This document shows, one piece after another, positions 952 through 64,000 of a stretch of DNA of 64,000 nucleotides (the stretch's first letter is position 1; the number at the start of each line of letters is the position of its first letter). The stretch lies in contig JAKPFT010000018.1 of NCBI GenBank assembly GCA_029551285.1, positions 50,847-114,846 on the forward strand. The letters are read 5' to 3'. The translations under genes and the position numbers were made by a program. Source of the stretch: a bacterium (GTDB lineage: Bacteria > Ratteibacteria > UBA8468 > B48-G9 > DSTR01). The notes beneath the pieces are model-generated. The model was not told where the DNA came from, did no database searches, and worked only from the letters and a program-made list of their open reading frames with translations.

Positions 952-1398
952 TTAGGACGTTTTCCGAAGGGGAAAGGTTGCTTTAGCACTTTCGTCCAGC
1001 AACTTTTTTAACCTGGCCAGTCTTCTTCTATCTGCTGGAGAAAGACTGACCCGGGGCAGATTGTTTTCCATCTTTTTCTTAAGAGTTTCCGGAATCTTGC
1101 CCCGGTGTTGCCACCAGAACTGGCCCCGCGCTTTTTCCTGAGAGAGAAAAGGTGAAAAGTGCTGATAGCAGTCCGGGCAACCAAGGAAGCGATACCGCCG
1201 GATGTCCTGCCAGCGATATCCGCAGGCCGGACATACCCGGCCAGTTCGTTTCCGTTCCTTCCTGACCGGTGTCCGTGTTTCCTCCAGCGAAACCGCCGCG
1301 ATACAGACCTCCGGGGCGGCCGGGTTTTTTTCCGTCAGGGTCACCACCAGTTTTGTCCAGCCTCCGGCAAGAAAAAAATCTGTCTTACTCGGTTTCAT
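952..1398 (-). CDS. mcsA: McsA-like protein (CxxC zinc motifs)
   Basis: VCPACGYRWQDIRRYRFLGCPDCYQHF double CxxC motif; lies directly upstream of mcsB on the same strand. Confidence 0.85.
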   Translation of the reverse strand: MKPSKTDFFLAGGWTKLVVTLTEKNPAAPEVCIAAVSLEETRTPVRKERKRTGRVCPACGYRWQDIRRYRFLGCPDCYQHFSPFLSQEKARGQFWWQHRGKIPETLKKKMENNLPRVSLSPADRRRLARLKKLLDESAKATFPLRKTS

Positions 1399-2269
1399 AC
1401 ACAGGAATACCTTCCCTTATCGCTTTTTCCTTGAAGGCCTGTCTGATTCTTCCCGTGGTCGGCCCGGGCCGGCCGGTGCCGATAGGACGGCCGTCCAGGG
1501 ATGTTGCCGGGATAATCTCCGCCGCAGTTCCTGTAAGAAAGCATTCGTCGGCCACATAGATGTCGTGTCGGGTAAGGTTTTGTTCCCTGACTTCCAGTCC
1601 GAGACTCCGGCCCAGTTCCATTACTACCTTGCGGGTGACCCCGGCCAGCACGCCGGCGTGCACAGGAGGCGTGGCCAGGACCTGGCCGTGGACCACGAAG
1701 ATATTCTCCCCGGTGCACTCGCTCACATATCCGGCATGATTGAGGATTAAACCTTCGTCGGCGCCGGCGTGATTGGCCTCTATCTTGGCCAGGATGTTAT
1801 TAAGATAATTCAAAGACTTGATGGCCGGGTTGACCGATTCGTGAAGGTTGCGTCTGGTCGCCACCGTCACTACTTTCAATCCTTTTTCGTAGTAACTTTC
1901 CGGATAAAGTTGAATTTTGCTGGCAATAATGAAGATGGTTGGCCGGGGACATTTTCTCGGGTCCAGGCCTAAATCGCCCACCCCCCGGGTGACCACAATC
2001 CGAATATAACTGTCTTTCAACTTGTTGGCTTTCACCGTTTCCATGACTGCCTGCCGCAGGGCCTGCCTGCTCAGCGGCACTTCCAGCATAATCCCGTGAG
2101 CCGACCAGTACAGCCGCTGCAGGTGTTCTTCCAGACAGAAAATACGGCCCTGGTAACTGCGCAACCCTTCAAAGACACCATCTCCGTACAGAAGGCCATG
2201 GTCAAAAACAGATATTTTAGCCTGTTCTTCTGGCACCAGTTTTCCGTTCAGATAGATCAGCAAACCCAT
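1385..2269 (-). CDS. ilvE: Branched-chain amino acid aminotransferase (class IV PLP enzyme)
   Basis: MGLLIYLNGKLVPEEQAKISVFDHGLLYGDGVFEGLRSYQGRIF; AIKSLNYLNNILAKIEA; ECTGENIFVV. Overlaps the mcsA start by 14 bp. Confidence 0.93.
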   Translation of the reverse strand: MGLLIYLNGKLVPEEQAKISVFDHGLLYGDGVFEGLRSYQGRIFCLEEHLQRLYWSAHGIMLEVPLSRQALRQAVMETVKANKLKDSYIRIVVTRGVGDLGLDPRKCPRPTIFIIASKIQLYPESYYEKGLKVVTVATRRNLHESVNPAIKSLNYLNNILAKIEANHAGADEGLILNHAGYVSECTGENIFVVHGQVLATPPVHAGVLAGVTRKVVMELGRSLGLEVREQNLTRHDIYVADECFLTGTAAEIIPATSLDGRPIGTGRPGPTTGRIRQAFKEKAIREGIPVYETE

Positions 2270-2375
2270 TCTCTCCTCCTGTGCCCTGCCCGGGTCCTGT
2301 GACAGACTTTAATTTTTCAGTTTTTTCTTGTTTCTGTCAATGGTTTTGCAACTGCTTCTTTCCCTACCCTTCCCC

Positions 2376-2643
2376 TGTCTAAAAAAGGAAGGGGACAGCT
2401 GGCGAACGAATTGCGAAGGCACAGATACAAGACAAGATGAAAAGCGGCAGCGTTCGGTAAGCGGACCGGAGAAGTTTATCCGGGACGCAATACCTTACTC
2501 GGCGGTGTCTCCAGCTCGCCACCTGGCGAGCGAGTTCGCCGAGCAACCGATTTCGGCGTAGTCCTTGTCTGTGCCGGAGCACTTTGAGTGAGCCAGTTCG
2601 TTCCCTTTCTTTTCATTCCTTAATTTCTTTTCTTTTTTTGACA
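2376..2643 (-). repeat. Dispersed structured repeat, copy 1 (element sense on minus strand)
   Basis: The reverse complement matches 63869-64000 (GTAGTGTCAAAAAA...AGGAATGAAAAGAAAGGGAACGAACTGGCTCACTCAA...GGCACAGACAAGGACTACGCCGAAATCGGTTGCTCGGCGAACTCGCTCGCC). It matches 47567-47798 more distantly (AGTAAGGTATTGCGTCCCGG). Imperfect ends TGTCTAAAAAA / TTTTTTTGACA. Confidence 0.85.
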
Positions 2644-2653
2644 CTACCCCTGC

Positions 2654-45789: not shown

Positions 45790-46698
45790 TCAGTGGCCGT
45801 GTCCGGCCAGATGCTTCTTAAGCCGTTTCTCCCGATAAAGTTTCCGGTCCGCGCGGGCAAAAAGAACCTTCTCATCTCTGAGTTCCGGGGTAAAGGTGGC
45901 CAGGCCAAAACTCAACTTCACCAGCACTTTCCTTTTGCAGGAGATTTTAAATTCATCTGTTTTTTCTCGCAGTCGTTTCAATAGTTTTTCCGCGGCCGCT
46001 TCATCAGTCAGGGGCAAAATCAGGGCGAACTCGTCACCTCCGTAACGGAAAACCAAATCTGTCCTGCGGGAAAATTTTTTCAGGCGTCTGGCTGTTTCTC
46101 TGATGGCCAGGTCGCCGCAGAGATGGCCGTGAGCGTCGTTGATTTCCTTCATCCCGTCAATGTCGGCCAGCAGGAGCGAGAATTTGGTTCCGTAGCGACG
46201 GGCTAACTGAAAGTGGTGGTGTAACTGCTCCTGGAAAGAGTTGTAGTTGTTAACACCGGTGAGCCCGTCTGTGGTGGAAACTTTTCGATATTCAGCGGTC
46301 ATCCTGACCGTATTCTCCACCTTCTGGAGAAGTTCCTGCGGCTGGTACGGCTTGGTAATATAGTCCACAACCCCTTCGCGCAGACCGGCCAGTTTGTCAG
46401 TTAGAGTATCTCTCCCAGTGAGAAAGATAATCGGTGTAAGCCAGGTGTGCCTGATTTTGCGCAGCCGCCGGCAAACTTCCAGCCCGTCCAGGTCAGGCAG
46501 GCCGATATCTAAAATTACTAAATCAGGCTTTTCCTGCTGAAACAGCCGGAGGCCTTCCTTTCCGGTGGCGGCTTCCAGGACGGTGAAATTTTTCTCCTGA
46601 AGTAGAGCCTTCAGAATAGCCCGGCCTTCAGGGTCGTCCTCCACGATGAGGACGCGACCCGGGCCACTGCCAGAAATTTTTTTTATCGGTTTTTCCAC
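45790..46698 (-). CDS. Response regulator with GGDEF (diguanylate cyclase) domain
   Basis: RVLIVEDDPEGRAIL...LVILDIGLPDLDG...KPYQPQ receiver domain; TDGLTGVNNYNSF...FRYGGDEFALILP. Likely GTG start at 46698; the longer ORF would overlap the TSUP gene. Confidence 0.92.
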   Translation of the reverse strand: MEKPIKKISGSGPGRVLIVEDDPEGRAILKALLQEKNFTVLEAATGKEGLRLFQQEKPDLVILDIGLPDLDGLEVCRRLRKIRHTWLTPIIFLTGRDTLTDKLAGLREGVVDYITKPYQPQELLQKVENTVRMTAEYRKVSTTDGLTGVNNYNSFQEQLHHHFQLARRYGTKFSLLLADIDGMKEINDAHGHLCGDLAIRETARRLKKFSRRTDLVFRYGGDEFALILPLTDEAAAEKLLKRLREKTDEFKISCKRKVLVKLSFGLATFTPELRDEKVLFARADRKLYREKRLKKHLAGHGH

Positions 46699-47465
46699 AG
46701 CGTATTCAACCAGGCGGTACCAGTACGATTTCCCGAGGAAAGCAGCGCGGCCAGGTTCAGCAGACTGACACCAATGATGACCACTAAAATTACCCGCCGG
46801 AAGGTACTTTCCCTGGCCAGTCTTTTCAGATAAAGGCCGAGGAAACAGCAACCGATAGTCGGCAGAATAGCCAGAGAAACCAGGTGAAAGGCCTCCGGAG
46901 AGAAAAGGCCCAGCGAGAAGAAGGTAAAAGAACCGGTGAGCGACAGAAGGAAGAAGTAAAGCAGCAGCGTGGAACGAAACTGGTCCTTACCCCAGCCAGC
47001 GGATAACCCCCAGATGACCATCGGCGGCCCGGATTGGGAAATACTCCCTCCCAGAAAACCACTCAGCAATCCGACGCCAATCCGCAATCCCGGTCTGTCG
47101 CGAACCGGCAGTTTCACCTCAAAGAGAAAGAGCGCAGCAAACAGCAGTGTCGCCAGACTGATGCCTGATCGCAAAAGTTTCACGGGCAGATAAGCCAGGC
47201 AGATTGCTCCCAGAGGAAAACTTACCATGGCCGGCAGGAGGAAAGAGAGACTTGCTTTCCAGCGAAGGTGGTGTCTGCTCTCCCACAGGAGGACAGGATA
47301 AAGTGAAAGCATCAGCAGAAAGTTCACCGGCACAGCCGTGCGCGGAGACAGCACCAGAGTGTAAAGTGGAATCGCCAGAAGGCCGCCACCAAATCCGGAA
47401 AACGATTGCACCAGCCCGGAAAGAGAGGCCACCATAACAAGGAAAACAAGGGTACCTGTTTCCAT
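46683..47465 (-). CDS. TauE/SafE (TSUP) family membrane protein
   Basis: SFSGFGGGLLAIPLYTLVLSPRTAVPVNFLLMLSLYPVLLWESRHHLRWKASLSFLLPAMVSFPLGA; GLLSGFLGGSISQSGPPMVIW. Confidence 0.88.
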   Translation of the reverse strand: METGTLVFLVMVASLSGLVQSFSGFGGGLLAIPLYTLVLSPRTAVPVNFLLMLSLYPVLLWESRHHLRWKASLSFLLPAMVSFPLGAICLAYLPVKLLRSGISLATLLFAALFLFEVKLPVRDRPGLRIGVGLLSGFLGGSISQSGPPMVIWGLSAGWGKDQFRSTLLLYFFLLSLTGSFTFFSLGLFSPEAFHLVSLAILPTIGCCFLGLYLKRLARESTFRRVILVVIIGVSLLNLAALLSSGNRTGTAWLNTLWKNR

Positions 47466-47530
47466 GGCAAAACCTGGTAAAACAGTATATTAACAGATTT
47501 CGTCTTTGACGGGAAAGTCTGCTGGTTTCC

Positions 47531-47824
47531 CTAAAATTCCGACCAGACGGAGGTTGTCCAGGAGTATGTCTAACTTCGGGAAGATTTCTGTGCACACGCC
47601 TTGTCGCAGACAAGACTACGCAGCCAATCGGTTACTGGTGCGAACTCATTCGCCAGGTGGCGAATTCAGACACCGCCCAGTAAGGTATTGCGTCCCGGTT
47701 GGACTTGCCCGGTCCGCTTACCGACCGCTGCCGCTTTGGCTGCTTGTCTTGTAGCTGCGCCCTCGGCTACCGTGGCTTGAAATCTCCCCTCGTTGACACC
47801 GTGTTTCTTATGTCGGAATTTTAG
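47531..47824. mobile_element. MITE-like unit: 13-bp perfect terminal inverted repeats flanked by a 7-bp direct repeat, containing structured repeat copy 2
   Basis: GGTTTCC|CTAAAATTCCGAC ... GTCGGAATTTTAG|GGTTTCC. TIRs 47531-47543 and 47812-47824; direct repeats 47524-47530 and 47825-47831. Confidence 0.8.
47567..47798 (+). repeat. Dispersed structured repeat, copy 2 (divergent)
   Basis: ATGTCTAA...CGCAGACAAGACTACGC..CAATCGGTTAC...ATTCGCCAGGTGGCGAAT...CAGTAAGGTATTGCGTCCCGG...GGTCCGCTTACCGA.CGCTGCCGCTTT...CTTGTCTTGTAGCTGCG...TTGACA, colinear with the reverse complement of 2376-2643. Confidence 0.85.
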
Positions 47825-47839
47825 GGTTTCCTGATAAGG

Positions 47840-48712
47840 TCACTCAGTGGAGGGGACTTCCTGAACCATGGTCATAATCTGCACTACCCGGTCTTCCTCT
47901 TTCAGCGGGATTTTTCTCGTTTCTGTGAAGTACACCCGACCGGACACCTCTGTCTTTTCCCGGGTAATGAGCTCCTGGCCGGATTGGAAGACCTGTTCAT
48001 ATTCCTGACGCACCCGCGGTGGCAGAAAAGGAAAAACTGAGAAAAGGTTCTGGCCGACTGCTGGCAGGGGCAAACCTATTTTCCTGTTCCACTCCTGAAA
48101 GGCCGGGTTGAAAAGAAGAAGAGAATAACTGCGGTCAATGACATGAATCGGCACCGGAATAACTTCCAGGAGAAGGCGGTATCTAACCTGTTTTGGCGGT
48201 TCTGCGGCTTTTTCCCCGGCCCTTTCGGTGAACTCGCGGCCGCAGTGGAGAAGACCACAGGGTTTGTTTTCTTCGTCCCTGAGAACAAGGCTGCGCCAGG
48301 CAATTGTTTTTGACCAGCCAAACCTGGTCAGCACCGGCGTTTCATAATGCTTGACCATCTCAATTTCGCCTTCTAAGAGTTTTTTCTGGAGAAACCAGAC
48401 CGCTTCGCCCACCGCGGGTTCAAAACACAGTTGGTGCCATAACCGGCCATGATATTCTTCAGGCAGCCGAAGTCCCAATACCCGGCGTCCTTTCTTGTTA
48501 ATCAGGGATAAAGTTCCATCTGGTTTCACCACCACCAGCATCAGGTCAAGAAGGTCAAGACAGTTCTGCCACTGGTTACATTCCTGCTGGAGTCGTTGAA
48601 TGGTATTCTGACTGGAGCGCAACTGTTCCTGGAGAGAATTTACTTCAGCCTGGAGGGCGCTGATAGCCTTCACCAGTTTGTCTTTAGGCGCCAGCGGCCT
48701 TTCTGTACTCAA
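47840..48712 (-). CDS. PAS-domain protein with N-terminal coiled coil
   Basis: QAEVNSLQEQLRSSQNTIQRLQQECNQWQNCLDLLDLMLVVVKPDGTLSLINKKGRRVLG; second PAS-like VIPVPIHVIDRSYSLLLFNPAFQEW. Confidence 0.85.
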   Translation of the reverse strand: MSTERPLAPKDKLVKAISALQAEVNSLQEQLRSSQNTIQRLQQECNQWQNCLDLLDLMLVVVKPDGTLSLINKKGRRVLGLRLPEEYHGRLWHQLCFEPAVGEAVWFLQKKLLEGEIEMVKHYETPVLTRFGWSKTIAWRSLVLRDEENKPCGLLHCGREFTERAGEKAAEPPKQVRYRLLLEVIPVPIHVIDRSYSLLLFNPAFQEWNRKIGLPLPAVGQNLFSVFPFLPPRVRQEYEQVFQSGQELITREKTEVSGRVYFTETRKIPLKEEDRVVQIMTMVQEVPSTE

Positions 48713-63852: not shown

Positions 63853-63868
63853 CAAGGCGGAGAGGTAG

Positions 63869-64000
63869 TGTCAAAAAATGAATGAAAGAGGAATGAAAAG
63901 AAAGGGAACGAACTGGCTCACTCAAGCTGCTCCGGCACAGACAAGGACTACGCCGAAATCGGTTGCTCGGCGAACTCGCTCGCCCAGAGGCGAGCTCAGA
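63869..64000 (+). repeat. Dispersed structured repeat, copy 3 (cut by window end)
   Basis: TGTCAAAAAATGAATGAAAGAGGAATGAAAAGAAAGGGAACGAACTGGCTCACTCAAGCTGCTCCGGCACAGACAAGGACTACGCCGAAATCGGTTGCTCGGCGAACTCGCTCGCCCAGAGGCGAGC, near-identical to the reverse complement of copy 1. Confidence 0.88.

Follow-up and report, generated by a model that had tools for sequence, protein, structure and literature searches.

The window, i.e. the whole 64-kb stretch of DNA analysed here, carries a 294-bp element (positions 47531-47824) between a PAS-domain gene (47840-48712, minus strand) and a TauE/SafE (TSUP) gene (46683-47465, minus strand). The element sits directly past the PAS stop codon, between these two co-directional genes, and is flanked on both sides by the 7-bp direct duplication GGTTTCC (47524-47530 on the left and 47825-47831 on the right). 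Its terminal inverted repeats (TIRs) read CTAAAATTCCGAC on the left (47531-47543, plus strand) and GTCGGAATTTTAG on the right (47812-47824, minus strand). The perfect inverted repeat is actually 15 bp long (47529-47543/47812-47826) and not 13, because two bases of GGTTTCC pair too; 13 bp fall outside the duplication. The body is a long imperfect hairpin with a strong fold on either strand, in which an inner basal stem (left arm GGGAAGATTTC, 47578-47588, plus; right arm GAAATCTCCCC, 47779-47789, minus) surrounds a conserved structured core (47605-47765, plus strand; 178 bits with our covariance model R1). Its interior contains no ORF that reaches 100 aa, hence no coding capacity for a transposase. 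The duplication, the TIR and the 294-bp unit described in the initial annotation of this DNA are thus present at exactly these positions. Moreover, the TIR is the sole perfect 13-mer inverted repeat with a spacing of 150-420 bp in the 64-kb window, while 60 Markov-simulated windows contained a mean of 0.25 such repeats, none of them with a flanking 7-bp duplication.

We designate elements with these ends type A and searched for further copies in the genome that contains the window (G000; 2.72 Mb, 99 contigs, 93% complete). BLAST with the 294-bp element returned at least 66 matches, with 40 of 142 candidate regions scored, so that all copy numbers are lower bounds. Among them are at least about 12 interspersed type A copies with ends like CTAAAATTCCGACATAAG, mostly with 291-297 bp between the TIRs, which is what the initial annotation had proposed to look for; two further entries (L011 and L013) are apparently a single copy broken by a contig gap. 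Exact duplications flank five copies and measure 7, 8, 11, 7 and 8 bp, namely GGTTTCC in the window, AATTTGAC (L002), AAACCCCGATG (L003), TTAGACG (L008) and CAGTTGAA (L010), with the 11 bp of L003 exceeding the length at all other type A copies. The remaining copies have imperfect duplications, such as ATAATC(C/G), and two copies have none. Matches of this quality were never reached with shuffled flank partners (0/5000, P < 0.0002). Besides full-length copies, G000 contains deletion derivatives of 54-191 bp that retain both ends and miss parts of the interior. At one locus (L044, G000:C43:11500-14500; 706-1815), a PemK/MazF-type toxin gene (983-1381, minus strand; PF02452) lies between two near-identical 191-bp derivatives, with a small ORF upstream (1320-1523, minus strand) that may encode its antitoxin. 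The outer edges of this arrangement carry GATTCAT on both sides, as expected of a composite mobile unit.

Read together with the adjoining CTTAT, the right TIR of the window element agrees with CTTATGTCGGAATTTTAG, an 18-bp end that complete insertion sequences have in other genomes. When GTDB genomes were scanned with the 18-bp sequence CTTATGTCGGAATTTYAG, this yielded 25 loci, many from MAGs labelled Candidatus Omnitrophota, and ends of the form CTRAAATTCCGACATAAG bound complete two-gene insertion sequences that encode a DUF6788 protein and a DDE_Tnp_1 transposase. The full-length transposon with the same ends that the initial annotation had suggested searching for therefore exists outside G000, in two complete versions. 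One (L071) spans 2624 bp, has a perfect 18-bp TIR and consists of two ORFs, for DUF6788 (PF20586) and a 594-aa DDE_Tnp_1 transposase with D-D-E positions (D192, D283 and E430). The other (L085), from a Clostridia MAG, spans 2272 bp and has the same ORF pair; the two transposases share only ~26% identity, yet the TIRs are near-identical and the D-D-E positions conserved. At a third locus (L076), a transposase C-terminus lies directly inside the same TIR. Both complete transposases reach the Pfam cut-off for DDE_Tnp_1 and score 45 and 48.7 bits with the NCBIfam model IS4_1, below its cut-off of 115, and we therefore class them as IS4-superfamily, unclassified. With that superfamily they share the DDE_Tnp_1 domain and its D, D and Y..R...E positions; the low score and the extra DUF6788 ORF set them apart.

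The assembly of G000 (93% complete, 99 contigs) contains neither a DUF6788 gene nor a homolog of the L071 transposase, and so we infer mobilisation of type A in trans from the shared ends. Repeated elements are frequently absent from assemblies of this kind. A clear flanking duplication is missing from two complete elements, L071 and L135. The latter (L135/L143, G008:C67) is an insertion sequence that pairs DUF6788 with DDE_Tnp_1 and whose ends, CAATAATTTCTGATTAAG, have diverged but are perfect over 16 bp or more; it lies in a genome of the same order that also contains copies of the core. IS1634 is reputed for variable-length duplications and was considered as autonomous partner; it was ruled out, since the IS1634 genes of G000 and its relatives lack CTRAAATTCCGAC ends. 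A search of the open-access literature turned up the term DUF6788 in none of the papers it listed.

A strongly folding hairpin right after the PAS stop codon, between co-directional neighbours and stable on both strands, might also be a large transcription terminator or a REP-like palindrome, next to which the GGTTTCC pair occurs by chance. We regard this as highly improbable. Terminator prediction called no terminator within the 294-bp element, leaving unsupported the terminator that the initial annotation had named as an alternative. Several copies with the same ends lie at unrelated loci and have different flanking duplications, these ends also bound transposase-coding elements, and the combination of TIR and duplication never arose in the simulated windows. 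On the other hand, comparison with an empty site was informative in part. In the only other genome of the genus (G001), the two genes follow each other as they do here and have no insert between them, but the single GGTTTCC expected there is unreadable because the intergenic flanks are too diverged (~71% identity to G000). Likewise, copies of the core that lack the type A TIR, which together with non-matching empty sites the initial annotation would have counted against an insertion, do exist; these, however, belong to a second type of element, which is bounded by other ends and flanked by duplications of 8 bp, and are therefore no argument against insertion. The segment 47531-47824 is a non-autonomous DNA transposon and falls within the definition of a MITE: it is short, has TIRs and a target-site duplication, lacks a transposase ORF, belongs to a multi-copy set and has an autonomous counterpart with the same ends. 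Its reading as a MITE in the initial annotation is borne out by same-end copies with differing duplications of their own, by deletion derivatives and by transposase-coding elements elsewhere.

The second element type, type B, is represented twice in the window and has GGTTCTGTCAAA at one side and GGTAGTGTCAAA at the other, with a leader that contains TTGACA motifs. Copy 1 (2293-2648, minus strand; ends GGTCCTGTGACA and TTTTTGACACTACC) is a single unit whose core (2414-2573, minus strand) is 83% identical to the type A core over 161 bp. It is flanked by a putative decayed 8-bp duplication, CCTGCCCG at 2285-2292, which matches CCTGCCTA at 2649-2656 in 6/8 positions. Copy 3 (63864-64000, plus strand; core 63936-64000) is cut by the contig end inside the repeat and is thus incomplete through assembly, not biology. 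Both copies have the end GGTAGTGTCAAAAAA and, on the far side, GGTTCTGTC, in agreement with the initial annotation, which had noted that copies 1 and 3 share the structured core of the window element and have outer ends of another type.

Across G000, type B units are frequently arranged in tandem at ~300-bp spacing, and many arrays reach contig ends. In at least 34 of 46 loci, as judged by a simple ORF criterion, 16-25 bp separate the leader end from a start codon, and a Shine-Dalgarno-like sequence usually occupies this gap; the far end is often within about 20 bp of the stop codon of a co-directional gene. Several type B loci (among them L098, L109, L094, L111 and 2293-2648 of the window) share a single orientation directly upstream of the starts of unrelated genes; variant positions at these loci form mosaics, as if recombined between copies. 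One unit (L128, 660-892; G000:C30) has two inner stems that are entirely different in sequence and still complementary. An anchored test of the 8-bp flanks found at least 6/8 matching positions in 6 of 23 pairs, against 0.5 expected; a longest-common-substring test ignored the register and was uninformative. At the G001 counterpart of the copy 1 locus, the aminotransferase and ABC-transporter genes abut with no array between them. Given these 8-bp flank duplications and the abutting genes, type B is likewise an insertion.

As to how type B moved, its GGTTCTGTCAAA ends (GGTTCTG-type) and 8-bp duplications resemble the ends and duplication length of the IS6 family. An IS6/IS26-like transposase might have mobilised type B, with type A as a separate capture event. 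Such transposases are known to target existing copies, which on this account would explain the tandem arrays, and the junctions common to tandem units fit as well. We nevertheless consider it unlikely, as neither G000 nor any of 20 relatives contains an IS6-family transposase that passes the curated cut-off, and a weak match in G000 (L139) has no such ends nearby.

What the two element types have in common is the core. Our covariance model of it matched five further genomes of the same order (G008, G013, G015, G017 and G021; E from 1e-24 to 1e-10) and, with strict filters, none of the other genomes searched, including G001. In G021, the copies are complete type B MITEs that end in GGTTCTGTCAAA and are flanked by duplications of 8 bp (TTTTCCGA and TGTGAATG at 8/8, TAAAATTT/TCAAATTT at 7/8). 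Copies inspected in the other four genomes show neither type A nor type B ends, and most of them lie directly past a stop codon in gene-sense orientation. In two of these genomes (G013 and G015), the core occupies the same position behind a thiolase gene that is orthologous between them and 73% identical in DNA sequence; in both (L169 and L167), a second core copy begins downstream of the first, so that tandem arrangements occur in other genomes of the order too. No Rfam 15 covariance model matched the core at the gathering threshold or at E <= 1. A viral origin was dismissed, the lone 17-mer match looking like chance and the longer core pattern having no match.

The fold of the core is conserved and has undergone compensatory change. 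At the thiolase site, 42 predicted pairs are unchanged between the two genomes, 8 have changed in both partners, 2 have changed in a single partner, and no pair is broken; one stem, for example, reads CTGCC/GGCAG in one genome and CGGGA/TCCCG in the other. The consensus fold of a 24-sequence alignment comprises 44 pairs, 21 of them with compensatory change, and the core copies of G000 show two-sided change in 27 pairs, compared with 14.7 +/- 2.3 after shuffling (0/500). Besides, the motifs CAGACAARACTACG, AAATC and GAACGC..GCTTT are near-invariant across families of the order; their 'unpaired' status is approximate, since they are partly paired in some predicted folds.

In type B, G-U and A-C departures are about equal in frequency, and in each of the 32 units tested it is the antisense strand that gives the better fold, which does not favour an RNA transcribed from the gene-sense strand. 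The gene-sense position between stop and start codon, on the other hand, suggests an intercistronic boundary or a regulatory structure, and weakly favours, as the most likely role of the core, that of a structured element between cistrons which would act as a transcription boundary or in regulation; it might instead be a DNA-level element, an antisense RNA or the product of mere palindrome maintenance. Some of the two-sided changes could, moreover, be produced without selection by mutational correction of quasi-palindromes. Along these lines, types A and B might both have arisen by decay of a single ancient palindromic transposon, with a functionless core whose symmetry was kept by hairpin-templated repair. 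The sequence GTGTC...GACAC near the hairpin base of both types would fit such an origin, as would the missing strand asymmetry between G-U and A-C in type B and the many copies, deletion derivatives and tandem arrays, which are like those of selfish repeats. We hold this to be possible, if somewhat doubtful. Three observations speak against it: unpaired motifs hardly vary between families of the order, the core was kept at an orthologous site where 8 pairs changed on both sides and none was broken, and it persists in G008, G013, G015 and G017 without type A or B ends. That the core is instead a functional, selected nucleic acid of an undescribed, order-wide family (regulatory, boundary or even catalytic), which survives and spreads by being enclosed in unrelated transposon ends and in G000 has been inserted, always the same way round, some 22 bp ahead of many start codons, is a proposal to which we give a little under an even chance.

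Known bacterial MITEs, such as Correia elements, RUP, ERIC and Nezha, are short, TIR-bounded, duplication-flanked, non-coding, hairpin-forming and multi-copy, and share their ends with an IS. Type A has all of these features. The interiors of typical MITEs are lineage-specific, whereas that of type A is a structured core that occurs order-wide and also between other ends. REP, BIME and REPIN sequences, which are moved by RAYT, are palindromic repeats found between genes and preferentially near gene ends; the elements described here share this form and placement, but REP-type sequences are much shorter, and ours have a TIR, a target duplication and a multi-helix core. BrickBuilt of Porphyromonas gingivalis is an intergenic MITE with tandem repeats between a leader and a tail, inverted-repeat ends, promoter elements and promoter activity (PMC4596501). 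Type B arrays resemble it in being always intergenic and in having a leader, a tail and tandem repeats, but the BrickBuilt repeat unit measures 23 nt and the type B unit ~300 bp with a folded core (PMC4596501). TIMEs are described as Tn3-derived inverted-repeat miniature elements that are moved in trans and build mosaic non-autonomous transposons (PMC4133298). Such mosaic formation recalls the two 191-bp type A derivatives around the MazF/PemK gene, although TIMEs have Tn3-type ends and type A has ends of the DDE_Tnp_1/DUF6788 type (PMC4133298).

In our best reading, which we give a probability of roughly 0.87, the window element is an ordinary trans-mobilised MITE whose payload is structured, conserved and previously undescribed. 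The transposase would come in trans from an insertion sequence with two genes (DUF6788 plus DDE_Tnp_1; IS4 superfamily, unclassified) and would recognise the type A ends, which bound such insertion sequences elsewhere, move the MITE and leave a duplication of usually 7-8 bp. Judging from the ends, it was probably the DUF6788-associated transposase that moved the type A copies. The MITE body holds a copy of the conserved ~160-nt core, which further genomes of the order contain independently of it and which has also been packaged between transposon ends of another, unrelated kind (type B, with 8-bp duplications). The core most likely persists between cistrons, as a boundary or regulatory structure, and would spread by hitch-hiking on whatever transposon ends enclose it. 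Our limited search of open-access papers found no description of a conserved folded payload common to two kinds of ends.

MITE interiors are usually regarded as deletion leftovers. Here, the interior is an order-conserved fold with compensatory changes at an orthologous site and two unrelated sets of ends, and type B insertion separates genes that abut in the same-genus genome G001. If the core has a function, it would be a structured element not described before, from an uncultured lineage, and would clearly exemplify how a functional structure can disperse on borrowed ends.
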